Shown here piece by piece: positions 45,020 through 63,133 of a DNA stretch of 64,000 nt. The notes under the pieces are model-generated. The model was not told where the DNA came from. It ran no database searches and saw nothing but the letters and a program-made list of their open reading frames with translations. Position numbers and translations under genes: made by a program. How positions within the stretch are numbered: position 1 is the first letter of the stretch; each line of letters begins with the position of its first letter. Origin of the DNA: Lysobacter sp. S4-A87 (GTDB lineage: Bacteria > Pseudomonadota > Gammaproteobacteria > Xanthomonadales > Xanthomonadaceae); assembly GCF_022637455.1 (NCBI RefSeq), contig NZ_CP093341.1, positions 2,046,001-2,110,000 of the forward strand. Reading direction: 5' to 3'.

Positions 45020-47192
45020 GATCCGACCTCCCAGGGACGACGGCACGGCACAAGGTATCGACCCGCCTGTATGCAGGTCTTCACGCCGCGCCGCCCGGCC
45101 GTCGGCCATCGCCGCGGCCTGCCTGATGGCCCTGTCTCCGGCGATGGCGCAGCAGGCGCCACCATCGGCCACGACCCTCGACACGGTCGAGGTGCTCGGC
45201 GCGCGTCACGCGCTGTCCGACTTCCCCGGTTCGGTCACCGTCATCGACGGCGACGCGCTGCGCGCCGGACAGCGCCAGGTCTCGCTGGCGGAGGCGCTGG
45301 TGCGGGCGCCCGGCATCACCGTGCTCGACCGCCAGAACTACGCGCAGGACCTGCAGGTGCAGAGCCGCGGCTTCGGTGCGCGCTCCACGTTCGGCATTCG
45401 CGGAATCAAGCTGATCGTCGATGGCATCCCCTCGTCCGCGCTCGATGGCCAGGGCCAGGCGGCGAGCTTTCCGCTCAGTGCGCTCGATCGCATCCAGGTC
45501 CTGCGCGGGCCGCTGGCGTTGCAGTACGGCAACGCGGCCGGCGGTGCGATCGTCGGCGAGACGGTGCTCGATGGCGGGCATAGCGTCGATGTCGATGCCT
45601 GGACCGGATCGAATACGAGCGGCCGGCTTGCCACCGGCGTCGAGGGCGCCAGCGACGACGATGTCTGGCGCTGGCAGGCGCTGGGCAGCTATTTCACCAC
45701 CGATGGCGATCGTCCCCATAGTTCGGCCGAGCGCGGGCAGCTCGATGCGATCGCGCAGTGGGTGCCCAGCGAGGGCCAGCGGCTGCGGCTGGTCGCGGGC
45801 GGATTGCATCAGCCCTACACCGACGATCCGCTCGGACTCACCCGCGCGCAATGGCAGCGCGATCCGCATGGGACCGATCCGGTCGCCGAGCTGTTCGACA
45901 CGCGAAAGCGCATCGACAACGGGCAAGCCGGCGCTCGCTGGGAGGATGCGTATGCAAATGGGCGCGAGTACTGGCTGGGCGGCTATGGCGTGGCGCGTGA
46001 TGTCGTGCAGTTCCTGGCGATCCCGATCGCGGCGCAGCGCGCGCCGACCAGCGCCGGCGGCGTCATCGACCTGGGCCGGCAATCGTCCGGTGTCGAAGCC
46101 GGGCACCGCTGGGACGGCCAGCGCGGCGCGCTGACCATCGGCGCCGAAGCCGGCTGGCTGCACGAACAACGGCGCGGTTACGAGAACTTCGTCGGCACGC
46201 AGCTCGGCGTGCGCGGACGCCTGCGTCGCGACGAGGACAACCGCATCCGCAGCAACGAGGCCTACGTGCTGGGCGATCTGCGGCCGGCCGACGACTGGAC
46301 GGTGCTGGGCGCGGTGCGCCATGCCCGCCTGCACTTCTCGTCCGACGACCACTACATCGCGCCGGGCAACGGCGATGACAGCGGCAGCCTGGATTACAGC
46401 GAGACCGCGGCATCGCTGGGCGTGGCGCGTGCATTCGCGCAGGGCGAAGTGTTCGCCAGCATCGGCCGCGGTTTCGAGACTCCGACGGTGACCGAGCTGG
46501 CCTATCGGCCCGACGGCGGCGCCGGTCTGAACTTCGGCCTGCAGCCGGCGCACTTCGACAGCGCCGAAGTCGGTGCGCGCTGGCGCTTCGGTGGCGGCGA
46601 CGCCAGCATCGCGGCCTACCGCATCGACGGCGAGGACGAAATCGTGCCGGCCGACAATCGCGGCGGCCGCGCCAGTTTCGCCAACGCCGGACTGACCCGA
46701 CGCGAAGGCGTGGAGGCCGGCATCGAAGCGCGGCTGCACCCGCGCTGGTCGTACGTGCTGACCGTCAACTGGCTGCGGGCGCGCTTCACCGAACCTTTCA
46801 GCTATCGCGTGGTCAGCGGCGGCGTCGAGCAGGTGCAGGAGGTGGATGCGGGCAATCGCATTCCCGGCATCCCGCAGGCCGATGGTTATGCGGAGCTGGC
46901 CTGGAACGATGCCAGCGGCCGGCTCATCGCGGCGCTGGAGGCGCGCGCCAGCGACCGCATCGCCACCGATGACCGCAATACCGACTACGCGCCGGGCTAT
47001 GCGCAGTTCGCGCTGCGATTGCAGTGGCGTGCAGCGGCGTCGGAGTGGCGGGCGTTCATGCGCGTGGACAACGTGTTCGACCGCGAGTTCGCCGGCTCGG
47101 TGATCGTCAATGAGGGCAATGCGCGGTTCTTCGAGCCGGGGGCGGGGCGCGGGGTGACGGTAGGGATCGGCTGGGGAGACGGCCGGCAATAG
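45018..47192 (+). CDS. TonB-dependent outer-membrane receptor (about 720 aa)
   Basis: The plug domain is clear: TLDTVEVLGARHALSDFPGSVTVIDGDALRAG, SLAEALVRAPGITVLDRQNYAQDLQVQSRGFGARSTFGIRGIKLIVDGIP, and RIQVLRGPLALQYGNAAGGAI. A 22-strand barrel and C-terminal aromatic segment (GVTVGIGWGDGRQ) follow. The 5' end is doubtful: the in-frame ATG at 45018 gives a 47-residue leader before AMAQQ with no ribosome site. A better-looking ATG at 45071 (MQVFTPRRPA) is out of frame by one base. The ligand is unknown; no siderophore genes are nearby. The receptor body itself is certain. Confidence 0.9.
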   Translation: MIRPPRDDGTAQGIDPPVCRSSRRAARPSAIAAACLMALSPAMAQQAPPSATTLDTVEVLGARHALSDFPGSVTVIDGDALRAGQRQVSLAEALVRAPGITVLDRQNYAQDLQVQSRGFGARSTFGIRGIKLIVDGIPSSALDGQGQAASFPLSALDRIQVLRGPLALQYGNAAGGAIVGETVLDGGHSVDVDAWTGSNTSGRLATGVEGASDDDVWRWQALGSYFTTDGDRPHSSAERGQLDAIAQWVPSEGQRLRLVAGGLHQPYTDDPLGLTRAQWQRDPHGTDPVAELFDTRKRIDNGQAGARWEDAYANGREYWLGGYGVARDVVQFLAIPIAAQRAPTSAGGVIDLGRQSSGVEAGHRWDGQRGALTIGAEAGWLHEQRRGYENFVGTQLGVRGRLRRDEDNRIRSNEAYVLGDLRPADDWTVLGAVRHARLHFSSDDHYIAPGNGDDSGSLDYSETAASLGVARAFAQGEVFASIGRGFETPTVTELAYRPDGGAGLNFGLQPAHFDSAEVGARWRFGGGDASIAAYRIDGEDEIVPADNRGGRASFANAGLTRREGVEAGIEARLHPRWSYVLTVNWLRARFTEPFSYRVVSGGVEQVQEVDAGNRIPGIPQADGYAELAWNDASGRLIAALEARASDRIATDDRNTDYAPGYAQFALRLQWRAAASEWRAFMRVDNVFDREFAGSVIVNEGNARFFEPGAGRGVTVGIGWGDGRQ

Positions 47193-47205
47193 CCCCTCAG
47201 TCGCC

Positions 47206-47231
47206 GTCATTCCCGCGAAGGCGTGAATGAC
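47206..47231. repeat. GTCATTCCCGC-type palindrome
   Basis: GTCATTCCCGC, loop GAAG and GCGTGAATGAC form an 11-bp stem with one mismatch, between the TonB receptor and the RsbU-like gene. Confidence 0.75.
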
Positions 47232-47299
47232 GGGGGTTGGCGCCGGCATCACATCCCGGCGCTATGCTGCGGCGAAGGGGCTCCCGATCCGGTACCGCC

Positions 47300-49282
47300 A
47301 TGACCCAGCTCATTGCCGAGTTGCCTGCGTCCGGCCGCGCGGTGCCCTGGTACCGGAGCCTGCGCACGCGGCTGGTGCTGTGGATCTGCCTGGGCTGCGT
47401 GGCCGTGCTCGTGGGGGCGACGCTGGTCGTGCAGGCGCGCTCTGCGCAGTTGCTCACGGCGCAGAGCGAGCGCGAGATCCGCACCCTCGCCGAACAGACC
47501 GCGCTGGGCCTGCACGCGACACTGGAGTCGGTCCAGGTCGGTGCGACCACCCTGGGCGAGGCCGTGCGCGGGGTCGGTCGCGAACCCCGCACGCTCGACG
47601 CCCTGCTCCGCGCCACCGTCGCCGGTGACGACGACATCGAAGGGGCGATGCTGATCCTGGAACCCGGCGCGCTCGATGACGGTGACGCCGGCTACAGCTG
47701 GTACGTGCGTCGCGAAGGCAAGGGCTTCTACACCCAGCCGATGCGATCGCGCGGCTACGACTACCACGACCAGCCGTGGTGGAAGCGCACGATCGGTGAG
47801 GGTCGCGCCTGGTGGTCGGAGCCCTACCGCAACGCGGCCACCGGCGATCAGATGTTCGTCACCTACAACCGGCCGATCCGGCGCAACCCTGAAGACCTGG
47901 CGTCGGCACCGGTCGGCATGGTCAGTCTGGACGTGCCGGTGAGCCGGCTGCGTACGCTGATCGGCCAGCAGTCGATCGACTCGCCGGTGCTGCGGATCGT
48001 GCTGAGCCCGGAGCATCTGTATGTCGTGCATCCGTCGCCCGAGCTGGAACTCAAGGTGCGCCTGGACGATCGCGCCCGCCAGCTCGACGGTCATGTCCTG
48101 CAGCCGTTGCTCGATGCCGTGCGCGAGCGCCGCAGCGCCGATGTCACCTACCTCGACCCGACCACCCACATCCGCCGCATCGGCATGGTGCAACCGGTCC
48201 CCGACAGCGCTTGGACGGTGGCGGTGTCGGTGTCGGAGCAGTACGCACAGGAGCAGCTGCGGCGGACCACGCGTGCGGTGATCGCCGGCGGCCTGCTGGC
48301 AGTGCTGGTGCTGGTGCTGGTGCTGTGGCTGATCGCGCGGCCGATCACGCGGCCGCTGCTGGCGTTGACGTCGTCTGCCGGACACTTCGCCGCCGGTGAG
48401 TTCGACTGGCCATTGCCGCACACCACCCGCCGCGACGAAGTGGGCCTGCTCGCCCGCGCCTACGACCGCGCGCGCAGCTCGATCAAGTCGCAGTTGGCCG
48501 AGATCGAACGCATGGCGCGCAGCCGGCAGAAGCTCGAGAGCGAACTGTCGATCGCGCGCGACATCCAGCTGGCGATGCTGCCGCCGGCACCGACGCTGCA
48601 TGCCGACGGCCATTGCCTGCAGGCACATGCGCTGCTGGAGCCGGCGAAGGCGGTCGGCGGCGACTTCTACACGTTCTTCGTCCGCGACGAGCGCGTGCTG
48701 TGGTTCGTCATCGGTGACGTCTCCGACAAGGGCGTGCCGGCGGCGCTGTTCATGGCGCGGGCGATGACCGTGCTCGAAATCGCCACGGGCCTGGGCGGCA
48801 CGCCCGACCGGGCATTGCGTGCCGCCGCCGCACGCCTGGTCGAAGGCAACGACACCTGCATGTTCGCCACCGTGCTGTGCGGCGCGATCGATTCCGGGAC
48901 CGGTGAGATGGTGCTGGCCAGCGCCGGCCACGAGGCGCCGGTGTTGTTGCGTGCCGGTGGTCGCCGCCAGTACGTCGAAGTGCCGACCGGCCCGCCGCTG
49001 GGCGTCGACATTGCCGACAGCTACCCGCTCTGGCGCGGCCGGCTGCAGCCCGGCGACGCGTTGGTGGCCTACACGGACGGCATCAGCGAGGCGCTCGACG
49101 GCGGACAGAATGCCTTCGGCACAGAGCGCCTGCTGTCCGCGCTGCCCGCCGGCGCCGACGCAAAAGGCCTGTGCGAGGCGCTGGTGGCGGCCGCGCACGG
49201 GTTCGCCGACGGTGCCGCGCAGTCCGACGACATCACCGTGCTGGCGCTAAGCTTCGATCCATCGACAGGGGGGAATGCCTGA
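47300..49282 (+). CDS. RsbU-type PP2C serine phosphatase with membrane sensor domain (660 aa)
   Basis: Helix near residues 25-45, a periplasmic sensor domain (about 46-330, Cache-like, with GYSWYVRREGKGFYTQPMRSRGYDYHDQPWWK), second helix near 335-355, HAMP (about 356-410), then a SpoIIE/PP2C domain. Metal-binding Asp residues are in GGDFY and FVIGDVSDKG, and the last in AQSDDITVLALS. It should dephosphorylate the downstream STAS protein. The stop overlaps the anti-sigma gene start (TGATG). Confidence 0.92.
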   Translation: MTQLIAELPASGRAVPWYRSLRTRLVLWICLGCVAVLVGATLVVQARSAQLLTAQSEREIRTLAEQTALGLHATLESVQVGATTLGEAVRGVGREPRTLDALLRATVAGDDDIEGAMLILEPGALDDGDAGYSWYVRREGKGFYTQPMRSRGYDYHDQPWWKRTIGEGRAWWSEPYRNAATGDQMFVTYNRPIRRNPEDLASAPVGMVSLDVPVSRLRTLIGQQSIDSPVLRIVLSPEHLYVVHPSPELELKVRLDDRARQLDGHVLQPLLDAVRERRSADVTYLDPTTHIRRIGMVQPVPDSAWTVAVSVSEQYAQEQLRRTTRAVIAGGLLAVLVLVLVLWLIARPITRPLLALTSSAGHFAAGEFDWPLPHTTRRDEVGLLARAYDRARSSIKSQLAEIERMARSRQKLESELSIARDIQLAMLPPAPTLHADGHCLQAHALLEPAKAVGGDFYTFFVRDERVLWFVIGDVSDKGVPAALFMARAMTVLEIATGLGGTPDRALRAAAARLVEGNDTCMFATVLCGAIDSGTGEMVLASAGHEAPVLLRAGGRRQYVEVPTGPPLGVDIADSYPLWRGRLQPGDALVAYTDGISEALDGGQNAFGTERLLSALPAGADAKGLCEALVAAAHGFADGAAQSDDITVLALSFDPSTGGNA

Positions 49283-49710
49283 TGCGACTGCGCCTGCAGA
49301 TCCCGTGCGAACGCACGCAGCTGGGCCTGCTGCTCGATTCGATCGAGCAGTCACTGCTCGAACATGGCATCGCCAGGGAACTGCGCGACGACATGCGCCT
49401 GATCGCCGAGGAAGTGGTCAGCAACGCCATCAACCATGGCGATAACGGCGGCGGCGCCGACGGCGAACCCACACCGCGCCGGATCGCGGTCGACATCGCC
49501 CGCGACGATGACGGCCTGCATGTCGAGTTCCGCGACAACGGCAAGCCCTTCGACCCGCTCGACCAGGAACCTCCGGACCTGGACGCCGACATCGTCGACC
49601 GGCCGGTAGGCGGACTGGGCGTGCACCTGGTGCGTGAACTGGCGCGCAGCGTGCGCTATGTCCGCGAGGAGCCCTACAACGTGCTGCACGTGGTCCTGCG
49701 TACCCGCTGA
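49282..49710 (+). CDS. RsbW-like serine kinase/anti-sigma factor (142 aa)
   Basis: HATPase fold of the GHKL type: N box EEVVSNAINHG, G1 box FRDNGKPFDP and G2 box VGGLGVHLV. It is expected to phosphorylate the STAS anti-anti-sigma factor and otherwise bind its target. No sigma factor is linked, so the target may be an RNA polymerase sigma factor elsewhere or another protein, as in many proteobacterial partner-switching modules. It is co-translated with the phosphatase. Confidence 0.92.
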   Translation: MRLRLQIPCERTQLGLLLDSIEQSLLEHGIARELRDDMRLIAEEVVSNAINHGDNGGGADGEPTPRRIAVDIARDDDGLHVEFRDNGKPFDPLDQEPPDLDADIVDRPVGGLGVHLVRELARSVRYVREEPYNVLHVVLRTR

Positions 49711-49742
49711 TTGCAAGGCAAGTCCCCCACACGAGGTCGCCC

Positions 49743-50132
49743 ATGGAACTCCAGATCCACATCGATCCACCCAGCAACGGTTCGCAGCGCGTCGCCCTCG
49801 GCGGACGCCTGGACACCAACAGCTACGCCGAGTTCGACCGCCAGCTCGAGCCGCTGCTGGCCGGCATGCAGTCCCTGCTGCTCGACCTGAGCGAGCTGGT
49901 GTACATCAGTTCGGCCGGGATCCGCTCGATCTTCCGCGTGCGCAAGGCGCTGGCGGGGCATGCGGGCAAGGTGCTGGTGCTCAACCCGCAACCGCAGATA
50001 CAGAAGGTGTTCGACGTGGTGAAGGCGGTGCCGTTGAACGAGATCTTCTCGTCGGCGGCGGAGGCCGACGCGTATCTGGATGCGATGCAGAGCAAGGTGT
50101 TGCGGGGTGGCGATGACGACGAAGGGTACTGA
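49743..50132 (+). CDS. STAS-domain anti-anti-sigma factor (RsbV-like, 129 aa)
   Basis: STAS fold with the phosphorylation loop LVYISSAGIRSIFRV (Ser in ISSAG). N-terminal RVALGGRLDTNSYAEFDRQL and C-terminal KVFDVVKAVPLNEIF are typical. It completes a three-gene RsbU-RsbW-RsbV switch, lying 32 bp downstream. A GAGGT-like site precedes the ATG. Confidence 0.93.
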   Translation: MELQIHIDPPSNGSQRVALGGRLDTNSYAEFDRQLEPLLAGMQSLLLDLSELVYISSAGIRSIFRVRKALAGHAGKVLVLNPQPQIQKVFDVVKAVPLNEIFSSAAEADAYLDAMQSKVLRGGDDDEGY

Positions 50133-50143
50133 GCCGTCGCGCG

Positions 50144-50213
50144 GTCATCCCCGCCTTCGCGGGGATGACGGGCCAGGGCAACGTCCTTGGATTCCCGCCT
50201 TCGCGGGAATGAC
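50144..50213. repeat. pair of palindromes of the GTCATCCCCGC family
   Basis: GTCATCCCCGC, CTTC, GCGGGGATGAC (50144-50169) is perfect over 11 bp, and ATTCCCGC, CTTC, GCGGGAAT (50191-50210) follows. The pair lies between the convergent STAS and maeB genes and could terminate both. Confidence 0.8.
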
Positions 50214-50216
50214 TGA

Positions 50217-52511
<2,295 letters not shown>

Positions 52512-52626
52512 CACAGGGAAACCACAGGCGGGCCGCTGATTCTATCCGCTTAATGCGGACGTCGAGGACGCCACGGTATGGCGCGGTTGCCGGCCATTAC
52601 TCACAATGCGGCCGAAAGGGGGAGAC

Positions 52627-53970
52627 ATGGACACTATGCGCACAGGGAATGGGCCGGCATGGCGACAGTGGCTGGCGGTGCTGGCGGCGGTCCTCGTACT
52701 GCAGGCGCCGCTGGTGTTCAATCCGGGCTATTTCAGCCATGACGAGCTGCAATGGGCCGCCTTTGCGGGCAATGACGCCAACCTGCTCGGGCGCGGCGAC
52801 CTGTGGACCGGCCTCGACAGCTTCCAGTACCGCCCGCTGACCTTCAGCCTGTGGCTGTGGCTGTCGCAGCACCTGTTTGCCCATCCGTTCGCCTTCCATG
52901 GCGTGATGGTCGCCTGGGGCGGCCTCAACTGCGCGATGCTGGCGGCGCTGCTGCGCCGCTTCGGGGTCGCGCCGGCGCCGGCCTTCACTGGCGCGCTGGT
53001 GTTCGCGCTCAGCCCCTTCGCCGTGCAGGCCCATGGCTGGGTCGGCACCATCGGCGACCTGATCTGGGTCGGCTGCGCGCTCGCCACCGGTCTGCTGGCG
53101 CAGCGTCCGCGCGCACCGCTGGCGATCGCCGTGGGTGCCGCGGCGCTGACCGCGATCGGCCTGCTGTCGAAGGAATCGGCCATCGTCATACCGGCCCTGA
53201 CCGCGGTCGCCTGGCTGATGCTGGGCCGCCCCCGCAGCTGGCTCTACGCCACCCTGGGCGCGCTGGTGCCGGTGGCGATCTACCTGGCGCTGCGCCTGGG
53301 CGTGATCCTGTTCGCGCCGCGCCAGTCCAACTACGGCTGGAGCCTGGCCAACCTTCCGCTGCGCTGGCTCGAGTACCAGGTGTTCCCGCCGATCGCGACC
53401 CGCCTGGGCATCACCGGCCTGCTGCCGGATGGATTCTCCGATGCGCGCACGTGGCTCGGCCTGGGCATCTGGCTGGCGCTGGCCTGGGCGTTCTGGCGCG
53501 CCGGCGTGCGCTGGCTGGTGGCATTCGTGCTGCTCGGCGTCGCAGCGCTGGGGCCGGTGCTGATCCTGGCCGAGTCGGCCAACCAGTACGGGTACGGCTA
53601 CGCGGCCGCTGTCGTCGGGCTCGGTGCGGCGGCATGGGCGCGGATGGCGCGGGCTGCCCGCATCGTGCTGGTGCTGGCGGCGCTGCTGAGCTGCTGGCAC
53701 GGCGTCAACGTCATGCGCCGCATGCACCAGATCGGCGAATTGCAGTCGGTCTTCTCGCCGTCGCTGGCACGTGCGGTGGCCGCGTCCGGAGACAACGGCG
53801 TGCGGATTCGCGCGCTGGTTCCCGGCCAGCACTGGATATACCTTCGCCTGTGCCACGAAATCCCCAGCTATGCGGGGGTGCCCATCGGCGACCGCGTAAC
53901 GCTGGTGGCCAGCGACGCCCCGGCCGACTACGTGATCGGCAAGGACGGCGCGCTGTCACCCGCACGCTGA
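52627..53970 (+). CDS. multispanning membrane protein, GT-C glycosyltransferase-like (447 aa)
   Basis: About ten hydrophobic helices are visible. The first periplasmic loop has HDELQWAAFAGN, with acidic residues like those of GT-C (PMT/ArnT/dolichol-mannosyl) enzymes, and FQYRPLTFSLWLWLSQHLF follows. A hydrophilic C-terminal domain (about 380-447) is short. GT-C assignment rests on topology and the acidic loop, so it is tentative. GGGGGAG precedes the ATG at 52627. It ends close to the convergent tctD-like gene. Confidence 0.68.
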   Translation: MDTMRTGNGPAWRQWLAVLAAVLVLQAPLVFNPGYFSHDELQWAAFAGNDANLLGRGDLWTGLDSFQYRPLTFSLWLWLSQHLFAHPFAFHGVMVAWGGLNCAMLAALLRRFGVAPAPAFTGALVFALSPFAVQAHGWVGTIGDLIWVGCALATGLLAQRPRAPLAIAVGAAALTAIGLLSKESAIVIPALTAVAWLMLGRPRSWLYATLGALVPVAIYLALRLGVILFAPRQSNYGWSLANLPLRWLEYQVFPPIATRLGITGLLPDGFSDARTWLGLGIWLALAWAFWRAGVRWLVAFVLLGVAALGPVLILAESANQYGYGYAAAVVGLGAAAWARMARAARIVLVLAALLSCWHGVNVMRRMHQIGELQSVFSPSLARAVAASGDNGVRIRALVPGQHWIYLRLCHEIPSYAGVPIGDRVTLVASDAPADYVIGKDGALSPAR

Positions 53971-54004
53971 ACCTGGGCTCCGTTGCCGGACCCGCCAGGC
54001 GCCC

Positions 54005-54673
54005 TCAGGCGCCCGCTTCGACCCGGTAACCGACCCCGCGCACGGTGACGATGCGCAGCCGCGACGCCGCGATCCTGCGGCGCAGGCGGCTGACGTAGAG
54101 CTCGATTGCGTTGGGCCCGGCGCCGTCGTCGAAGCCGAACAGGCCACTGCCGATTTCCTCGCGGCTGACGACACGGCCGACGCGGCCGATCAGGATTTCG
54201 AGCAGTCGGAACTCGCGGTTGGGCAGGTCGATGACGGCGCCGTCGAGCGTGACCCTGCGCGCAGCGCTGTCGAAATCCAGGCCACCGACCCGCACCAGTT
54301 CCGATGCCCGCCCGCGGCTGCGCCGCAGCAGCACGCGGCAACGCGCGTCGAACTCGCGCAGGTCGAACGGCTTGGCGAGGAAATCGTCGGCGCCGACATC
54401 CAGCGCCTGCACACGGTCTTCGATCCGGTCGCGCGCGGTCACCACCAGCACCGGCGTGGTGTCGCCGCGTTTGCGCAAGCCTGCAAGCAGCTCCAGGCCG
54501 CTCATGCGCGGCAGCCCGATGTCGAGCACGACCAGGTCGAAGCGCTGGTAGCGAAGCACGCGCGACGCCGAGAAACCGTCGGCCTGCCAATCCAGCGCAT
54601 GTCCATCACGACGCAGCTTGAGAACGATTGCATTGGCGAGACAGGCATTGTCCTCGACCAGGAGGATTCGCAT
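54005..54673 (-). CDS. tctD: OmpR-family response regulator, TctD-like (222 aa)
   Basis: Receiver domain with acidic pocket EDN (residues 7-9), phospho-acceptor Asp51 (VVLDIGLPRMSG) and Lys101 (AKPFDL). A winged-helix domain (about 128-220: LDFDSAARRVTLDGAVIDLPNREFRLLEIL, ELYVSRLRRRI, TVRGVGYR) follows. The pairing with an OprP-like porin and tctCBA, divergent, points to citrate/tricarboxylate-responsive TctD. No TctE sensor kinase is found nearby, which is unusual. The name is from context and subfamily likeness. Confidence 0.8.
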   Translation of the reverse strand: MRILLVEDNACLANAIVLKLRRDGHALDWQADGFSASRVLRYQRFDLVVLDIGLPRMSGLELLAGLRKRGDTTPVLVVTARDRIEDRVQALDVGADDFLAKPFDLREFDARCRVLLRRSRGRASELVRVGGLDFDSAARRVTLDGAVIDLPNREFRLLEILIGRVGRVVSREEIGSGLFGFDDGAGPNAIELYVSRLRRRIAASRLRIVTVRGVGYRVEAGA

Positions 54674-54720
54674 CAGCAGTGCTTCCTTGCACGTTTCTCC
54701 TGTCGTCGTTGCGTAATTTG

Positions 54721-54742
54721 CAATGACAGGTCAATGACAGGT
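54721..54742 (+). promoter_or_regulatory. 11-bp tandem direct repeat, likely response-regulator box
   Basis: CAATGACAGGT occurs twice head-to-tail (54721-54731 and 54732-54742) in the 141-bp gap between tctD and the porin gene. A period of 11 bp, one helical turn, is the classical binding pattern of OmpR/PhoB-type dimers. It may control both the regulator and the uptake operon. Confidence 0.8.
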
Positions 54743-54814
54743 TCGCATGCCTAGCCTGAATCACGCCAACGATTCCAACGCGCGGAATCGCAGCAGATCA
54801 GGAGAAAAAGCCGC

Positions 54815-56008
54815 ATGCGAAAGGATCGCAGCCGTCCGTCATCGACCACTCTGTCCACGTTGTTGTTGCTGACCTTGGCCACAACTGTTGCCAATGCAGA
54901 CGAAGGTGATGTCACAGCAACGCTTGGAGGAAGACTGCACTGGGACTTCGGGCAATTCGAGAACGACCGGCGCGGTGCGCCCAACGTCGACGACACCGAG
55001 ATCCGCAGGCTGGCACTGGAAGTGTCGGGCAAGCTGTACGGCCTGGAGTACACGGTGGAGGGCAACTTCGCCGACCTGCAGGACGATTTCAGCGTCGAGG
55101 CGATCGAAGCCTGGGACGTCCTGGTCAGCAAGAAGTTCAGTGCCGGCAAGCTGACCGTCGGCCAGTTCAAGCAGCACTTCACCCTCGACGACCGGATCAG
55201 CTCGAACTACGGCGTGTTCCTCGAGCGGTCGCTGTTCGCACAGACGCTGGCGCCGCTTTACCGCCTCGGCGCGGGCTGGCTCAGTGCCGGCGACGCCTAC
55301 ACCATCGGCGGCAGCGTCTACAGCCTGGAAAGCATCGACGAGTGGCAGATCAAGGGCCGCGCATTCGGTGGCCGCGGCACCTGGGCGCCGATGCACGAGG
55401 CCGGGCGCGTGTTGCATCTGGGCCTGTCGGCGGCACGCGAGTACTACGACCATCCCGGCCGCGACGGCGCGCCGGCGTTGCGCATACGACCGCGCCCGGC
55501 AGGGCATCTGTCCGACGCCAGCCGCTTGACGCTGGTGAGCTTCGGCAGCGGGCGCGACACCGATGTCGACAAGACGTCCATCGAATTCGCCGCCGTGCGC
55601 GGTCCCTTCCATGTCCAGTCCGAAATCGGTGACGCGCGCTTCGACGACGGCGGGCAGAGCGGTCGCGTCGATTCGGCCTATGCCGCCGTCGGCTGGTTCA
55701 TCACCGGCGAATCGCTGCCCTACGATCGCGGGGGCGGGCGCTTTGGCCGGGTCAAGCCCAACCGCAGCAGCGGCGCCTGGCAGCTGGCGTTGCGCTACGA
55801 CACGATCCGCGGCCGGCAGAACCTGTACGGCGTACGCGACTTCAGCGACACCTCGATCGCGGCCACCACTGCCGCCGTCAACTGGCACCTTCGCTCCAAC
55901 CTGCGCTTCCTGCTCGACTGGACCAGCAGCCGCAACTACGACCACCTGCGTGCGCTGACGCTCGACCGCACCCAGGCGCTGACCGGTCGCTTCCAGTACG
56001 ACTTCTGA
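54815..56008 (+). CDS. OprP/OprO-type outer-membrane porin (397 aa)
   Basis: Signal peptide (LSTLLLLTLATTVANA) precedes a 16-strand porin barrel with VDDTEIRRLALEVSGKLYGLEYTVEGNFAD, DAWD-type SKKFSAGKLTVGQFKQHFTLDDRISSNYGVFLERSLF and the terminal aromatic TGRFQYDF. These are features of the OprP/OprO family. Its position before tctC suggests it admits the tricarboxylate used by TctCBA rather than phosphate. AGGAGA is 9 bases before the ATG. Likely first gene of the tctCBA operon. Confidence 0.88.
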   Translation: MRKDRSRPSSTTLSTLLLLTLATTVANADEGDVTATLGGRLHWDFGQFENDRRGAPNVDDTEIRRLALEVSGKLYGLEYTVEGNFADLQDDFSVEAIEAWDVLVSKKFSAGKLTVGQFKQHFTLDDRISSNYGVFLERSLFAQTLAPLYRLGAGWLSAGDAYTIGGSVYSLESIDEWQIKGRAFGGRGTWAPMHEAGRVLHLGLSAAREYYDHPGRDGAPALRIRPRPAGHLSDASRLTLVSFGSGRDTDVDKTSIEFAAVRGPFHVQSEIGDARFDDGGQSGRVDSAYAAVGWFITGESLPYDRGGGRFGRVKPNRSSGAWQLALRYDTIRGRQNLYGVRDFSDTSIAATTAAVNWHLRSNLRFLLDWTSSRNYDHLRALTLDRTQALTGRFQYDF

Positions 56009-56073
56009 CGTCTCCCTGCATCCACCACCGGCGCATGCCGGTCTTTGCCATTGCCGATCCACGAGGCCACTGA

Positions 56074-57057
56074 ATGTCCCTGCTCCGCTTCCTGCTTCCT
56101 GCTGTCGCCGCCTTGTCGCTGCTGTTGCCCGCACACGCCATTGCCGATCCCTCCCGCCCCGAATGCATCGCCCCGGCTTCGCCCGGTGGCGGCTTCGACC
56201 TGACCTGCAAGCTGGCCCAGACCGGACTGGTCGAAGGCAAGGCGCTGTCGCGGCCGATGCGCGTGACCTACATGCCCGGCGGCGTCGGCGCGGTCGCCTA
56301 CAACACCGTCGTCGCGCAGCGCCCGGCCGATGGCAATGTCATCACCGCCTTCTCCAGTGGCTCGCTGCTCAACATCGCCCAGGGCAAGTTCGGCCGTTAC
56401 GACGAGAATGCGGTGCGCTGGCTGGCGGCGGTGGGCACCAGCTACGGCGCGATCGCGGTGCGCAGCGATTCGCCCTTCAAGACGCTTGGCGACCTGATGG
56501 CAGCGCTGAAGAAGAACCCCGGCAAAGTCGTCATCGGTTCCGGCGGGACGGTCGGCAGCCAGGACTGGATGCAGACGGCCATGCTGGCCAAGGCCGCCGG
56601 CATCAGTCCGAAACAGCTGCGCTATGTCGCGCTGGAAGGCGGCGGCGACATCACCACCGCGTTGCTGGGCGGTCATATCCAGGTCGGCAGCACCGACATC
56701 GCCGACTCCATGCCGCAGGTGAAGGCGGGCAAGATGCGCATCCTCGCGGTGCTGGCCGACAAGCGCCTTGCCCGGCCCGGCATGACGTCGATCCCGACCG
56801 CGAAGGAGCAGGGTTACGACGTCGTCTGGCAGGTCGCCCGCGGCTTCTATGTCGGCCCGAAGGTGAGCGCGCAGGACTACGCCTACTGGAAGGCCGCCTT
56901 CGACAAGCTGCTGGCCTCCAGGGATTTCGCCCGCCTGCGCGAAGAGCGCGAGCTGTTCCCGCTGGCGCTGACCGGGCCGCAGCTCGATGCCTACGTGAAG
57001 CGGGAAGTCGCGCGCTACCGCCAACTCGCGCGCGAGTTCGGCCTGGCCAAACGCTGA
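56074..57057 (+). CDS. tctC: tripartite tricarboxylate transporter, substrate-binding protein (327 aa)
   Basis: Signal peptide MSLLRFLLPAVAALSLLLPAHAIA. The binding fold has CIAPASPGGGFDLTCKLAQTGL, MPGGVGAVAYNTVVAQRPADGNVITAFSSGSLLNIAQGKFG and IGSGGTVGSQDWMQT, as in BctC/TctC. It captures citrate-like anions in the periplasm and delivers them to TctAB. It lies 65 bp after the porin and 19 bp before tctB. Confidence 0.93.
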   Translation: MSLLRFLLPAVAALSLLLPAHAIADPSRPECIAPASPGGGFDLTCKLAQTGLVEGKALSRPMRVTYMPGGVGAVAYNTVVAQRPADGNVITAFSSGSLLNIAQGKFGRYDENAVRWLAAVGTSYGAIAVRSDSPFKTLGDLMAALKKNPGKVVIGSGGTVGSQDWMQTAMLAKAAGISPKQLRYVALEGGGDITTALLGGHIQVGSTDIADSMPQVKAGKMRILAVLADKRLARPGMTSIPTAKEQGYDVVWQVARGFYVGPKVSAQDYAYWKAAFDKLLASRDFARLREERELFPLALTGPQLDAYVKREVARYRQLAREFGLAKR

Positions 57058-57076
57058 CCCAGGCCAAGGAATGCCC

Positions 57077-57553
57077 ATGACGACACAACCCGCCGCGCTG
57101 GTGCAGCGGCTGTTTGCCGGGGCCTGGCTGCTGACCTGCATCGTGTTCGCGGTGATCGGCTGGGACTACCAGGCCGAGTTCTCGTACGAGCCGGTCGGCC
57201 CGCGCGCGTATCCGCTGCTGTGCCTGGGCCTGATGGCGATCGGCCTGGCGTGGCTGATCGTGCGACCGCCTGCGCTCAAGCACGAAGAAGACGATGCACC
57301 GATGGACGCGGCGCTGCTGCGCAAGGCGATGCTGTGCATCGCACTGTTGCTGGCCTATGCCGGGCTGTTCGAACCGCTCGGCTTCATCCCCAGCAGCGCG
57401 CTGGTCGGCAGCTTCATTGCCCTGCTCTACGGCGGCCGCCCCCTTCCCGCCGTGACCACCTGCACATTGCTCAGTGCCGGCCTGTACCTGCTGTTCGACT
57501 GCCTGCTTGAAGTGCCGCTGCCGCTTGGCGTGCTCGAGCGACTTCCCTTCTGA
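57077..57553 (+). CDS. tctB: tripartite tricarboxylate transporter, small membrane subunit (158 aa)
   Basis: Four hydrophobic helices, with GPRAYPLLCLGLMAIGLAWLIV and YAGLFEPLGFIPSSALVGSFIALLYGG typical of TctB. The ATG at 57077 is preferred because AAGGA is 6 bases upstream, too close to an ATG at 57071. It forms the inner-membrane permease with TctA. Confidence 0.9.
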   Translation: MTTQPAALVQRLFAGAWLLTCIVFAVIGWDYQAEFSYEPVGPRAYPLLCLGLMAIGLAWLIVRPPALKHEEDDAPMDAALLRKAMLCIALLLAYAGLFEPLGFIPSSALVGSFIALLYGGRPLPAVTTCTLLSAGLYLLFDCLLEVPLPLGVLERLPF

Positions 57554-57566
57554 CGGGCCCCATACG

Positions 57567-59051
57567 ATGGAAACCTTCAACTACCTCGGCCAGGGCTTCG
57601 GCGTTGCCCTGACCCCCTACAACCTGGTCACCGCGCTGCTGGGAACGCTGATCGGCACGGTGGTCGGGTTGCTGCCCGGCATCGGCCCGATCAACGGCGT
57701 CGCCCTGCTGATCCCGGTGGCCTACGCGCTGGGCATGCCGCCGGAATCGGCGCTGATCCTGCTCGCGGCGGTCTACCTGGGCTGCGAGTACGGCGGCCGC
57801 ATCTCCTCGATCCTGCTCAACATCCCCGGTGAGGCATCGACGGTGATGACCACGCTCGACGGCTACCCGATGGCCAGGCAAGGCCTGGCCGGCGTGGCCC
57901 TGTCGCTGTCGGCATGGAGCTCGTTCCTCGGCGCCCTGATCGCCACCTGCGGCATGGTGCTGTTTGCGCCATTGCTGGCGCGGTGGGCGATCGCGTTCGG
58001 GCCGGCGGAGTACTTCGTGCTGATGGTGCTGGCAATCGTCGCGCTCAGCGGCCTGGCCAACGATCGGCCATTGAAGACGCTGCTTGCGGCCTTGCTGGGG
58101 CTGTTCCTGTCGAGTGTCGGCATCGATGCCAACAGCGGCGTGTACCGATTCACGTTCGACAGCCTGCATGTCGCCGACGGCATCCAGTTCGTGGTGCTGG
58201 TGCTGGGGCTGTTCTCGGTCAGCGAGATCCTGTTGCTGCTGGAGAAGACGCACAGTGGCCATCGCATGGTCGAGGCCACCGGTCGGATGCTGTTCAACGC
58301 CCGCGAGGCGGCGTCGGTGTTCTGGATCAACATGCGCTGCGGCGTGCTCGGCTTCTTCATGGGCGTGCTGCCCGGTGCCGGTGCGACGCTGGCCAGCGCG
58401 GTGGCCTACATGTCCGAGAAGCGGCTGGCCGGCGACAGCGGCCGCTTCGGCCAGGGCGACCTGCGCGGACTGGCCGCGCCGGAAACCGCGATCGGCGGCG
58501 CCGCCTGTGGCGCGATGGTGCCGATGCTGACCCTCGGCGTGCCCGGCTCCGGTACGACTGCGGTCATGATCGGCGCGCTCAGCCTGTACAACATCACGCC
58601 CGGGCCGCTGCTGTTCCAGGAACAGCCGCAGGTGGTGTGGGGGCTGATCGCGTCGCTGTTCGTCGCCAACGTGATGCTGCTGATCCTCAACGTACCGATG
58701 GTGCGCGTGTTCACGCGGATCCTGGCGGTGCCGAACTGGGCGCTGGTGCCAGCGATCGCAATCATCACGACGATCGGCGTGTACGCGGTGCACGCGACCA
58801 CGTTCGACCTGGTGCTGATGGTGGCCATCGGCGTGCTGGGCTACCTGTTGCGCAAGCTCGACTTCCCGCTGTCGCCGGTGCTGCTGGGTTTCATCCTGGG
58901 GGGATTGATGGAGCAGAACCTGCGACGGGCCCTGTCGATCTCCGACGGCGAGCTGGGGATCCTTTGGGCGAGTCCGATCTCGCTGGCGACGTGGGGCCTG
59001 GTGGGTCTGATGCTGGTGCTGCCGTTGTGGCGGGCCTGGCGGAAGCGGTGA
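57567..59051 (+). CDS. tctA: tripartite tricarboxylate transporter, large permease (494 aa)
   Basis: TctA family: METFNYLGQGFGVALTPYNLVTALLGTLIGTVVGLLPGIGPINGVALLIP, YGGRISSILLNIPGEASTVMTTLDGYPMARQG and LTLGVPGSGTTAVMIGAL are the conserved blocks (given as fragments). About twelve helices. It imports citrate or related acids using the ion gradient. Last gene of the porin-tctCBA operon. Confidence 0.95.
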   Translation: METFNYLGQGFGVALTPYNLVTALLGTLIGTVVGLLPGIGPINGVALLIPVAYALGMPPESALILLAAVYLGCEYGGRISSILLNIPGEASTVMTTLDGYPMARQGLAGVALSLSAWSSFLGALIATCGMVLFAPLLARWAIAFGPAEYFVLMVLAIVALSGLANDRPLKTLLAALLGLFLSSVGIDANSGVYRFTFDSLHVADGIQFVVLVLGLFSVSEILLLLEKTHSGHRMVEATGRMLFNAREAASVFWINMRCGVLGFFMGVLPGAGATLASAVAYMSEKRLAGDSGRFGQGDLRGLAAPETAIGGAACGAMVPMLTLGVPGSGTTAVMIGALSLYNITPGPLLFQEQPQVVWGLIASLFVANVMLLILNVPMVRVFTRILAVPNWALVPAIAIITTIGVYAVHATTFDLVLMVAIGVLGYLLRKLDFPLSPVLLGFILGGLMEQNLRRALSISDGELGILWASPISLATWGLVGLMLVLPLWRAWRKR

Positions 59052-59072
59052 GGTAGAGGGGGCGCCGCGGGG

Positions 59073-60335
59073 TCAGAGCTCCGGCGCCTTCCCGTCCACC
59101 ACGATCTTGTCCAGCCGGATCCGGTTGGCGAACAGCGAGAACGCCAGCATTCCCGCCAGCCCGTTCGCACGCGCCACCCACTGCGGCAGCCAGCGCGCCG
59201 GCTTGATCACGCCATCGGCGAACAGCGGCTCGAACCGCTGCACGTCGGTCAGCGTCATCTTGCCGGCGAACAGCCAGCGGCACAGCTGCAACTTGCCGTC
59301 GCGCAACGCCCAGCGGAAGAACGTGTGCACGCCGACCAGGCCGCGCAGGTACACGGTGTCCTTGGTGAAAGCATGGCCGCCAGTGGTCGGCACGCCGCGG
59401 AAAACGCGCTGCGCCGAGGCGAAGCTGTCCTCCGGCGTTTGCCCGGAGTCGAGGAAATAGCGGAAAACCTCGATGAAGTCGGCGCCGGCCAGCGCCATCG
59501 CCACCGCCTCGATGCGCAGGCTGATGCGCTTCATGCGGCCGATGTCGATGCTGCCGGTGATCTGTTCGGCGAACGTCGCCAGGCCTTCCTGGGTCGCGGT
59601 GATGCGCGGCGACGACAAGGCCAGGCTCGGCAGTACCGGCTGTTCACGGCCATTGAGGGCAGTGAGCGAGTGCACGAAGGCTTCGTGCTGCAGCAACTGG
59701 TGACGGTCGTAGTCGCTGAAGGCGGCGCCATGGCGCAGGCGGATGCGGGTGGCACCCGCGGCGGCCTTGGCGATCAGGTCCGGATCCAGTTCGACCGAGA
59801 TCACGCGCCCGTCGAAGTAGGTGTCGAGCTCGCGCTGCAACTGCAATTGCAGCGCGGTGGCGGAGATGGTGACGTGCTCGGCCGGCGACATCAGTTCGCG
59901 GTCGAGCTCGTCGGCGATCGAGATGAAGTGCTGCGCCGCTTCACGCGTGGTCGGTCCATCGCCCGGAAGGGCTTCGTCGGGGCGACCAAACAGCTTGATC
60001 GAGTGCTCGCAGACTGCCGGCGTGCCCAGCGATTCGCACAGTGCCGCGGCCTGCGACCAGCTTCGCGCCGAATCGATCAGGTACTGGCCCAGCGGATGGT
60101 GCGGGTCGGCCTGCGTCGCGATCGCCTCCATTTCGGCGCGCGTCTGGCTGAAATCCAGGCTTGGGTATTCGATCTGCGGGAGCTTGACCACACCGCGCGC
60201 GTAGTCAGCCAGGAATGCTGCCTCCTGGCCCGCCGGCCAGCTGACCAGGGCCAGCAACCGCACATCCTTCGCCGCTGCGACCATGCGCGCATCGAGCGCG
60301 GCGTGATGGGCGATCTCGGGCGCGAATCCGGTCAT
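59073..60335 (-). CDS. DUF1704 gluzincin-like protein with QEGLA motif (420 aa)
   Basis: The HEAFVHSL motif (HExxxH) followed by TATQEGLATFAEQ is the signature of DUF1704, often annotated as 'flavohemoglobin expression-modulating QEGLA motif protein'. The same family includes the eukaryotic tyrosine carboxypeptidase MATCAP, so it is likely a zinc carboxypeptidase. The start at 60335 gives the family length. The 5' end lies directly against a 30-bp inverted repeat. The substrate is unknown. Confidence 0.88.
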   Translation of the reverse strand: MTGFAPEIAHHAALDARMVAAAKDVRLLALVSWPAGQEAAFLADYARGVVKLPQIEYPSLDFSQTRAEMEAIATQADPHHPLGQYLIDSARSWSQAAALCESLGTPAVCEHSIKLFGRPDEALPGDGPTTREAAQHFISIADELDRELMSPAEHVTISATALQLQLQRELDTYFDGRVISVELDPDLIAKAAAGATRIRLRHGAAFSDYDRHQLLQHEAFVHSLTALNGREQPVLPSLALSSPRITATQEGLATFAEQITGSIDIGRMKRISLRIEAVAMALAGADFIEVFRYFLDSGQTPEDSFASAQRVFRGVPTTGGHAFTKDTVYLRGLVGVHTFFRWALRDGKLQLCRWLFAGKMTLTDVQRFEPLFADGVIKPARWLPQWVARANGLAGMLAFSLFANRIRLDKIVVDGKAPEL

Positions 60336-60346
60336 GTCATCGAGTA

Positions 60347-60423
60347 GCCCGGGTAAGGCCACAGGCCGCACCCGGGTACCAGGCGCATCCGACCCCGGGT
60401 GCGGCCTGTGGCCTTACCCGGGC
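60347..60423. repeat. 30-bp perfect inverted repeat of the CCCGGGT family
   Basis: The left arm (60347-60376) and right arm (60394-60423) are perfect reverse complements over 30 bp, with a 17-base loop. Each arm begins GCCCGGGTAAGG and ends CGCACCCGGG (read inward). It fills the gap between rsgA (stop 60426) and the DUF1704 gene (start 60335) on the minus strand, so transcription from rsgA must pass this very stable structure. Confidence 0.95.
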
Positions 60424-60425
60424 GA

Positions 60426-61643
60426 CTAGTGCTTCCCATACTTCTCATCGAGGCGCTTGTTGAGCGACTTGCCTGCCACTTTTTCTTCGGCCTTCTGCGC
60501 GCGCCGGTTGGCCAGGCGATTGGCGGCGCCGGCAACCTCATCGCTGAGCTTGAGGTAGTTGGCGAAGCGTTGCGGGTCGAGCTTGCCGGCCTCTATCGCT
60601 TCGCGCACGGCGCAGCCGGGCTCGCGCGCGTGCTTGCAGTCGCGGAACCGGCACTTCTCGGCCAGGGCTTCGACGTCGCTGAAGTTCTCGGCGACGTCTT
60701 CCTCGCCGGTCGGCTTGAGCTCGCGCATGCCCGGGGTGTCGATCAGGCAGGCGCCGGTCGGCAGCGGGATCAGCGCGCGATGGGTGGTGGTGTGGCGGCC
60801 GCGCGAATCGTTCTCGCGCACTTCGCCGGTCTTCATCCGCTCGGTGCCGAGCAGGGTGTTGGTCAGGGTCGACTTGCCGGCGCCGGAACTGCCGACGAAG
60901 ACCGCGGTCGTGCCGGGCTGCAGCCAGGGATCCAGGGCCGCGACGCTGTCGGGGTCGCGGGCGTTGACCGCACGCACCGCCACGCCCTGGGCCGCCAGTT
61001 CCACCAGCGCGGCCATCGCATCAGGCAGCACTTCGGGGTCGGCGGCCTCGGCCTGGTCGGCCTTGGTCAGCACCACCACGGGTTCGACGCCGCCGCCGCG
61101 CACCAGCAGCAGGTAGCGCTCGATGCGACGCGGATTGAAGTCGGCATCCAGGCCGCAGACCACGAATACGGTGTCGACGTTGGCCGCAATCAGCTGCTGC
61201 TGGTAATGCTCGCCGGCGGCGCCGCGCTTGATCGCGCTGCGCCGTGGCAGCAGCGCCACCGCCTTGCGGCCTTCCACCAGCAGCCAGTCGCCGACACCGG
61301 GGCGCTGGTCGATGGTGACCGTGCCCTTGCGGTAGCCCGGCGGACGCTGCCATTCGGGCAGGGACTCGACCGGGAAGCCGTGGTCGGGGCCGTCGGCAAC
61401 GATGTAGCCGCTGCGGTGCTGTTCGATGACCCGCGCCGGCCTTGCACCGGGGTGCTCGGCCATGAGGTCGAGCCAGACCTGGTCGAGCGGCGGGGTCTCA
61501 AGCGACGGGGTCTCAAGCGACGGGCTCTCAGGCAGCGAGCTCTCAGGCGACGTGACCTCAAGCGACGAGCCCGCGACCGGATCTGGCGAACTGGCCTTCA
61601 ACGGCCAACCAATGGCCTGCAGGGCGTCGAAACCGGGGATCAA
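60426..61643 (-). CDS. rsgA: ribosome small-subunit-dependent GTPase RsgA with extended N-terminus (about 405 aa)
   Basis: Circularly permuted GTPase that assists late 30S assembly. Order is G4 (TKAD, 193-196), G1 (GSSGAGKS, 251-258), G2 (GRHTTTHR), G3 (DTPG, 302-305), then zinc ligands CRFRDCKHAREPGC (Cys331, Cys336, His338, Cys344). An OB domain precedes. Residues 27-52 are Ser/Pro/Glu-rich pentapeptide repeats absent from usual RsgA. The longest frame begins at a TTG (61643) without a ribosome site; an internal ATG (61463) is an alternative. Confidence 0.9.
   Translation of the reverse strand: MIPGFDALQAIGWPLKASSPDPVAGSSLEVTSPESSLPESPSLETPSLETPPLDQVWLDLMAEHPGARPARVIEQHRSGYIVADGPDHGFPVESLPEWQRPPGYRKGTVTIDQRPGVGDWLLVEGRKAVALLPRRSAIKRGAAGEHYQQQLIAANVDTVFVVCGLDADFNPRRIERYLLLVRGGGVEPVVVLTKADQAEAADPEVLPDAMAALVELAAQGVAVRAVNARDPDSVAALDPWLQPGTTAVFVGSSGAGKSTLTNTLLGTERMKTGEVRENDSRGRHTTTHRALIPLPTGACLIDTPGMRELKPTGEEDVAENFSDVEALAEKCRFRDCKHAREPGCAVREAIEAGKLDPQRFANYLKLSDEVAGAANRLANRRAQKAEEKVAGKSLNKRLDEKYGKH
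61488..61565 (-). repeat. in-frame 15-bp repeats in rsgA
   Basis: The minus strand encodes SLEVT, SPESS, LPES, PSLETP, SLETP in succession, with units close to CCGTCGCTTGAGACC. Two SLETP units are identical at the DNA level. The array is in frame, so changes in unit number would alter only a linker. Confidence 0.8.
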
Positions 61644-61879
61644 GACTGTGCGGAGGCTGGGGACATGCCCGGATTCTAGCGGTCAACCGGGGGCAGGGAC
61701 GGATCCGTGTTGCCGGGTCGGGTCGCGGTCGCGAGCGGATGCACCGTCCGGCACCCGTAGTGAAGGCGCTGGCGGTTACCGCTCACACCGGCGCAGTTGC
61801 ACGTAATTGCGCCATTTCCGCTGCCGTTCGCGCCGGTTTCGGCTAGTCTGGCTCTCCGACCCCCCATTTGCCTGCAGCA

Positions 61880-63133
61880 ATGTCCCAGTCCCCCGTGAAG
61901 ACCCGCGAACGCCTGTCCGAAGTCCGCTACGAAATCCGCGGTGAACTGGCCCGGCGAGCCCGCGAGCTGGAGGGCCAGGGGCGCAAGCTGATCAAGCTCA
62001 ACATCGGCAATCCCGGCGCGTTCGGTTTCCGCGCCCCCGAGCACCTGCAGCGCGCGATCGCCGACCACATCAGCGACACCGACCCCTACACCCACCAGCA
62101 GGGCCTGCCGGCCGCGCGCGAGGCCATCGCCAGCTTCCACAAGCAGCGCGGCACGCCCAATGCGAGCCCGGAGCGCGTGTTCGTCGGCAATGGCGTCAGC
62201 GAGCTGATCGACCTGTCGCTGCGCGCCCTGCTGAACCCGGGCGACGAGGTGCTGCTGCCCTCGCCCGACTATCCGCTGTGGTCGGCGGCGACCATCCTCA
62301 ACGACGGCCGCCCGGTCTATTACCGCTGCCTGCCGGAGAACGGCTTCCTGCCCGACCCGGACGAGATCGCCTCGCTGGTGTCCAGCCGCACCCGCGCGAT
62401 CGTGCTGATCAACCCCAACAACCCGACCGGCGCCGCCTACCCGCGCGAGCTGATCGAGAAGATCGTCGCCATCGCCGCACGCCACAAGCTGCTGCTGATG
62501 TGCGACGAGATCTACGACTCCATCCTCTATGACGGCAACCAGTTCACCCCGATCGCACCGATCGCCGGTGACCTGCCGTGCCTGTCGTTCGGCGGCCTGA
62601 GCAAGGTCCACCGTGCCTGCGGCTGGCGCGTGGGCTGGGCGGTGCTGTCGGGCGACCCGGTCGCCAGCGGCAACCTGCACCACGCCATGGACCTGCTCGG
62701 CGCGCTGCGCCTGTGCGCCAACGTGCCCGGTCAGTTCGCGATCGAGGCGGCGCTGCATGGCGAGGACACCATCGCGCCACTGTGCGCGCCCGGTGGCCGC
62801 CTGTTCGAGGCACGACGCGCGGTCATCGACAGCGTCGCCGCCAGTCGCCACTTGCAACTGGTTGAACCGGCGGGCGCGCTGTATGCCTTCCCGGCCGTCA
62901 CCGGTGCGGCGGCGCAGGGCTTCGACGACCATCGCTTCGCGCTCGAACTGCTGGAGACCGAAGACGTGCTGGTGGTGCCGGGCTCGAGCTTCAACGTGCC
63001 CTACCGCAACCATTTCCGCGTCACCCTGCTGCCGCAGCCCGACGACCTGCGCGAAGTGTTCCGCCGCATCGAGCGCCTGCTCGACCGCTACGCGGGCAGC
63101 GAAGCCGGACAGGCGCAGGCGGCCGTGGCCTGA
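61880..63133 (+). CDS. alaA: alanine-synthesizing aminotransferase AlaA-like (417 aa)
   Basis: Fold-type I PLP aminotransferase: NPNNPTGAAYP, MCDEIYDSILYDG (Asp209) and Schiff-base Lys242 in FGGLSKVHRACGWRVGW. The N-terminal KTRERLSEVRYEIRGELARRARELE matches E. coli AlaA, which transfers from glutamate to pyruvate to form alanine. It lies 5 bp from the SGNH hydrolase gene and probably starts a three-gene operon. Confidence 0.9.
   Translation: MSQSPVKTRERLSEVRYEIRGELARRARELEGQGRKLIKLNIGNPGAFGFRAPEHLQRAIADHISDTDPYTHQQGLPAAREAIASFHKQRGTPNASPERVFVGNGVSELIDLSLRALLNPGDEVLLPSPDYPLWSAATILNDGRPVYYRCLPENGFLPDPDEIASLVSSRTRAIVLINPNNPTGAAYPRELIEKIVAIAARHKLLLMCDEIYDSILYDGNQFTPIAPIAGDLPCLSFGGLSKVHRACGWRVGWAVLSGDPVASGNLHHAMDLLGALRLCANVPGQFAIEAALHGEDTIAPLCAPGGRLFEARRAVIDSVAASRHLQLVEPAGALYAFPAVTGAAAQGFDDHRFALELLETEDVLVVPGSSFNVPYRNHFRVTLLPQPDDLREVFRRIERLLDRYAGSEAGQAQAAVA

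Follow-up and report, generated by a model that had tools for sequence, protein, structure and literature searches.

A doubled 11-bp word between tctD and the porin gene

Which protein, if any, reads the exact 11-bp tandem repeat that lies between the response regulator gene tctD and the divergent porin-tctCBA genes of Lysobacter sp. S4-A87? We analyzed this question in a window of 64,000 nucleotides, i.e. the whole stretch of genomic DNA under study, and in related loci of other bacteria. The word CAATGACAGGT occurs twice in tandem on the plus strand (54721–54731 and 54732–54742), with both copies exact and a spacing of 11 bp, inside the 141-bp gap separating tctD (54005–54673, minus strand) from the porin gene (54815–56008, plus strand). 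The preliminary description of this DNA, which had reported an exactly doubled word with a period of 11 bp in the divergent promoter region, was thus borne out at 54721–54742.

No other exact period-11 tandem 11-mer is present in the 64-kb window, and such a repeat arose in 1/100 dinucleotide shuffles of the window. Shuffling of the 141-bp gap itself yielded 0/20000 (1/4000 if any period from 9 to 14 was allowed). Taken singly, the 11-mer (≤2 mismatches) was not enriched in the window, with 12 observed vs 9.7 expected matches. Since the single word is unenriched and the doubled one rare, the signal resides in the doubling and its location, not in the word alone.

The repeat contains two equal half-sites, which form the core TGACAG-GTCAA-TGACAG (54724–54740, plus strand), an 11-bp direct repeat that reads toward the porin gene and has the period required of an OmpR/PhoB-type direct-repeat box. 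Throughout the 3.89-Mb genome, TGACAGNNNNNTGACAG, representing the core TGACAG-N5-TGACAG, has one exact match, which is the site described here, and the reversed control pattern has none. At up to two mismatches, 114 matches were found vs 118 for the reversed control, so that no second target in the genome stands out; the genome search suggested in the preliminary description therefore recovered this site but no further targets. Based on the sequence evidence presented below, we predict with high confidence that the neighboring TctD-type regulator binds to the tandem repeat, which is placed like a class-II activator site.

Genes and predicted promoter architecture

The regulator is an OmpR/PhoB-family response regulator with Receiver and Trans_reg_C domains, and its sequence contains E7, D8, D51, T79 and K101, which we take to be the phosphorylation residues of TctD. 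The best of 92 families for this protein was the NCBIfam TctD equivalog (NF012023) with 216 bits; as the cut-off of 337 is not reached, it represents a TctD-like relative outside the curated TctD equivalog. It adjoins a tricarboxylate transporter operon, in which the outer-membrane porin (Pfam Porin_O_P, PF07396; OprO/OprP family) is followed on the plus strand by tctC, encoding the periplasmic tricarboxylate-binding protein (56074–57057), tctB (57071–57553) and tctA (57567–59051; the ORF is listed from a GTG at 57474, but the translation indicates the ATG at 57567 as the likely start). Two further features were noted around these genes: beside tctD, in the interval 52606–54005, there is no tctE but a membrane-protein gene with no Pfam match, which converges on tctD and stops 34 bases short of its stop codon, and GCCATTGCCGATCC occurs twice (56047–56060 and 56137–56150), once ahead of tctC and once just within it, close to the point at which tctCBA replaces CitMHS (see below).

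The core of the box ends 11 bp before a TANNNT element (TAGCCT, 54752–54757, plus strand), which would serve as −10 and is presumed to be that of the porin-tctCBA promoter. With a transcription start about 7 bp after TAGCCT, the core would occupy about −40 to −24, in place of a −35 hexamer; class-II activators of the OmpR/PhoB family sit around −40 to −24. A consensus sigma-70 scan of 54640–54840 found no promoter, which would fit an activator-dependent promoter. By comparison with the OmpR/PhoB family, a TctD dimer would occupy the two TGACAG half-sites in a head-to-tail arrangement, separated by one turn of DNA. Phosphorylated TctD may then recruit RNA polymerase in a class-II-type manner and switch on the porin and tctCBA, with the uptake of citrate or other tricarboxylates as the probable output. 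Seen from tctD, the box precedes the start codon by 50 bp, which might allow autoregulation.

Conservation of the box among xanthomonads

Named genomes were scanned for relatives, and the best 80 of 530 confirmed relatives were kept; locus counts refer to these best 80 unless stated otherwise. In the stretch from tctD to the divergent gene, TGACAG-N5-TGACAG is present in each of the 31 named xanthomonad loci among the best 80 of 530 (L031–L060 and L092); 15 of the boxes are exact, and the other 16 deviate at a single base. The divergent gene encodes a porin except in L057, where it encodes CitMHS and no porin is present. Three of the boxes lie more than 300 bp away because the gap is longer there. 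The box was also found in 30/30 further loci from family genomes, at least some of which are from the same strains as the named loci, and a TctD match at E 1e-75 was obtained in 111/395 sampled family genomes.

The full order tctD / porin-tctCBA was found in 0/31 xanthomonad loci within the fetched flanks, and conservation was therefore tested on the tctD / porin order. On this order, the phylogenetic footprint anticipated in the preliminary description was recovered at all 31 named xanthomonad loci, which supports its proposal that the repeat is a putative site of an OmpR-family regulator. In an alignment of 11 representatives on the box, the information content is 1.93 of 2 bits over the 12 core positions and 0.39 in either flank, with 1.23 bits in the linker, 0.86 in the next ten positions and 1.62 over the seven positions from +11 to +17, TANNNT included. 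TGACAG is the only part of the 11-bp word that is conserved in relatives. Some Stenotrophomonas loci show CAGACT at the TANNNT position.

The box at transport promoters beyond the xanthomonads

In Marinomonas and Maribrevibacterium, tctCBA and tctD share one strand, with tctCBA first, and the box is located 113–133 bp before tctC in 12/12 loci, about 3 kb from tctD and not adjoining it. Alphaproteobacteria with a divergent tctC have the box before tctC in 10/10 loci. Throughout these 53 loci (31 + 12 + 10), it is oriented toward the transport gene. Judged by its position, the box follows the transport promoter and not tctD.

Among the best 80 of 530 loci, 67/80 contain a TGACAG or TGAAAG box (≤1 mismatch) in gene sense 15–420 bp before the porin or tctC start, a count that includes Variovorax tctC matches, some of them weak. 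A linker of 5 was the only one enriched: within 300 bp upstream of tctD, it was present in 38/80 loci (best 80 of 530), while every other length between 0 and 15 (15 lengths in all) occurred in 0 or 1 locus, and shuffles gave a mean of 0.1 and a maximum of 1. The window and the 80 loci together contain 62 boxes, irrespective of position; TANNNT followed at offset 10 or 11 in 44/62, and once elsewhere in offsets 0–29.

The variant half-site TGAAAG precedes tctC at the same 11-bp period in nine loci (seven exact, two with one mismatch) of Burkholderiales, Rhizobium and relatives, and Aureimonas, and the regulators there are 42–46% identical to that of the window. TGAAAG boxes also occur beside a minus-strand tctD-like gene in two genomes of the same class (L157, L158), five Variovorax loci show TGACAG/CGACAG, and L104 has a mixture. 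Recognition-helix residues (window positions 188, 193 and 195) separating TGACAG from TGAAAG regulators were suggestive, but they were rejected as confounded by descent and with exceptions in L158 and Variovorax. In L193 (2155–2174), a TctD-like regulator is separated from a divergent gene, which resembles tctC by eye, by two copies of a further half-site variant, GGTGTCAGG (TGTCAG), with a period of 11 bp.

No such box was found before a recognised porin or tctC in 13/80 loci (best 80 of 530). In L057 and L066, the box is present, but no recognised porin or tctC follows; a box with two mismatches adjoins tctD in L061, TGAAAG boxes occur at other places in L095 and L101, and L080, L081, L083, L085, L088, L091, L099 and L102 have no box within one mismatch, with a weak tctC-like gene divergent from tctD in L102. 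Plasmid regulators of Vibrio, Burkholderia, Azospirillum and Maritalea (L195–L198), which are 52–60% identical to the L066 TctD, have no box at one mismatch, and Novosphingobium L199 has one at one mismatch. The regulator of L195 (Vibrio alginolyticus plasmid NZ_CP119336.1) is 60% identical to the Marinobacterium TctD and lies beside glycerol genes; neither a TGACAG nor a TGAAAG box was found there within one mismatch. A class-wide scan toward the tctD of Pseudomonas or Salmonella gave 0/274 genomes over the TctD cut-off, and a close L066-type match was found in 6/369 genomes. Within the wider TctD-like family, some regulators thus have this box and others do not.

For comparison, 26 loci with different OmpR-family regulators served as controls, and the exact box was present in 0/26. 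A one-mismatch match was present somewhere within ~3.6 kb in 11/26, nine of which are one palindrome in one genus; in control L005, a mixed TGAAAG/TGACAG box precedes the regulator by 14 bases. In nine genomes of the genus (L009, L013, L014, L016–L021), the palindrome, TGACAGGGTCCTGTCAG, is conserved ~1.4 kb from another OmpR-family regulator.

If the predicted function is correct, TGACAG-N5-TGACAG, often with TANNNT 10–11 bp further on, would represent a sharp box for TctD-like regulators, ranging from Xanthomonas, Lysobacter and Stenotrophomonas to Marinomonas and alphaproteobacteria, with TGAAAG as the sister box of some more distant regulators. Tricarboxylate-uptake promoters would thereby become readable from sequence.

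Relation to known tricarboxylate uptake systems

A TctD motif as such is already known; our analysis adds the wide distribution of the box and a kinase-less version of the locus with a swapped transporter. In P. aeruginosa, opdH promoter activity is reported to be reduced in a tctD mutant, and TctD motifs, with no other motif type described there, are located at tctD and opdH-tctCBA (PMC4513871). Citrate induction of the opdH promoter is stated to require tctD (PMC10865840), and the opdH effect has been described as derepression, not activation, in another report (PMC6403454). For X. c. pv. vesicatoria, citH is cited as being under positive TctDE control (Tamir-Ariel et al. 2011). In Bordetella, bctDE is described as a citrate-responsive two-component system that activates, and is required by, the tripartite tricarboxylate transporter operon bctCBA, with citrate-bound BctC acting via the kinase BctE (PMC5812351). 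By analogy with this reported positive control of citH, opdH and bctCBA, TctD would act as an activator at the present locus.

As described, P. aeruginosa TctD resembles the regulator of the window in belonging to the OmpR/PhoB family, in adjoining a porin and tctCBA and in having its motif at the tctD and porin-operon promoters. The porins differ (OpdH vs Porin_O_P in the window), and the likeness of the motif concerns its location. A TctE partner is described for P. aeruginosa, whereas none was found in the genome of the window; similarly, the Bordetella bctDE-bctCBA circuit, as outlined there, includes the kinase BctE, and no such kinase was found here. The Xanthomonas TctDE-citH system shares with the window a TctD that is 72–75% identical and the box before a divergent porin. 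However, Xanthomonas has TctE and, downstream, CitMHS, whereas the window has tctCBA and no TctE; the CitMHS of the fetched Xanthomonas loci is presumably citH. Among the 10 of 54 papers listed by a text search on response regulators and citrate, none contained TGACAG, although the box may still have been published.

A regulator apparently without its kinase and with another transporter

A TctE-like match adjoins tctD in 80/80 relatives (best 80 of 530), starting 580–947 bp after the tctD start, and many of these matches are just 27–40% identical to the Lysobacter query. In the window, no TctE was detected at E 1e-4 within 47001–62000. The whole genome likewise revealed no TctE ortholog, with a best match to Lysobacter TctE of 33% identity and 118 bits, and no 2CSK_N domain, for which the same search was positive in E. 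coli. As far as can be judged from the genome sequence, the window TctD appears to be an orphan whose usual sensor partner was lost. As no TctE was found, the phosphate of TctD may come from a different kinase or from a small phosphodonor, or TctD may be active unphosphorylated.

The transporter differs as well: a CitMHS gene follows the porin in 29/31 xanthomonad loci, vs tctCBA in the window. In L057, CitMHS follows tctD itself, in L046 it is a 41-residue stub at the contig end, and the two loci without it are short contigs. A CitMHS search of the window's own genome, run without a positive control, was empty. Within the genus, tctA is present in 1/12 genomes, namely the source genome alone, and the 11 other members gave no TctD match at E 1e-75. 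The window tctA is 63–66% identical to Burkholderiales tctA in L093, L096, L103, L105 and L106. This similarity hints at acquisition.

Receiver helix alpha-1 is the usual kinase docking place. Of 91 near-constant receiver positions (the same in ≥29/30 relatives; L092, whose frame reads 326 residues, was left out), the window departs from the relatives at 13. TctD residues 10–22, i.e. helix alpha-1, contain 11 of the 91 positions and 5 of the 13 differences (hypergeometric P 0.008). Identity in residues 10–22 amounts to 58% in the window vs 76% for the whole receiver, with 87–97% in six other loci tested. As the alpha-1 test was post hoc and the set lacks a close relative of the window, this clustering is a lead only.

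One speculative scenario, which we consider possible but rather doubtful, is a two-component circuit in the middle of rewiring: the regulator and box would have been kept, the kinase lost, the docking surface drifted and tctCBA installed instead of CitMHS, with a new input. The promoter would then answer to another kinase, to a metabolic phosphodonor (acetyl phosphate), or to PhoB via the doubled site. The kinase-less locus represents a natural experiment on a response regulator after sensor loss.

Loss of TctE could also have left a mere relic, in which TctD and its site have ceased to regulate and some other mechanism drives the operon. The absence of a TctE ortholog and of a 2CSK_N match, together with the diverged alpha-1, would agree with such decay. 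However, the tctD frame is intact and includes the phosphorylation residues, and the half-sites and TAGCCT are intact too, features that would not be preserved for long under decay, which makes this reading unlikely.

Comparison with the PHO box

Like the box of the window, the PHO box is a direct repeat with an 11-bp period, and the window core on the other strand reads CTGTCA. The classical PHO box has the opposite orientation relative to the gene it regulates. The repeat might nevertheless be a PHO box bound by PhoB, not TctD, and control the phosphate-selective-type porin or tctD, which we regard as quite improbable. On the minus strand, positions 54723–54739 read TGTCAT-N5-TGTCAT, in line with the two (T)GTCAT boxes and 5-nt spacer reported for the P. 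aeruginosa PhoB motif (PMC4513871). The same study lists common targets of PhoB and TctD, including oprO (PMC4513871), and the window porin belongs to the OprO/OprP Pfam family. Furthermore, the exact doubled word gave 26 matches in 20 genomes of 59 relatives vs 9 for the reversed control, and two of the 26 are at tctD (the G000 and G012 copies). As the matches are mostly away from tctD, further proteins, with PhoB as one possibility, may use the doubled word.

However, the base completing TGTCAT is not conserved in relatives, and the box points opposite to the classical PHO box relative to the transport gene. It tracks tctDE-linked transport genes, including the tctC promoters of the Marinomonas-type and alphaproteobacterial loci, and its half-site turns into TGAAAG beside more distant TctD-like regulators. 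At P. aeruginosa tctD and opdH-tctCBA, the TctD motif alone is reported (PMC4513871). Binding by TctD therefore remains our preferred reading. That the repeat is a functionless product of chance or slippage is scarcely credible in view of its conservation at all 31 named xanthomonad loci, the contrast between core and flank information and the gap shuffles, even though the aligned relatives, which mainly have the hexamers in common, show less identity over the full 11 bp than the window does.

A separate pair of PHO-box-like 11-bp repeats, ~30 bp apart, was observed at L160 (G000:C1:1388561–1388609), upstream of a gene whose N-terminus resembles a TonB-dependent receptor by eye; a phosphate-regulon promoter is possible there.
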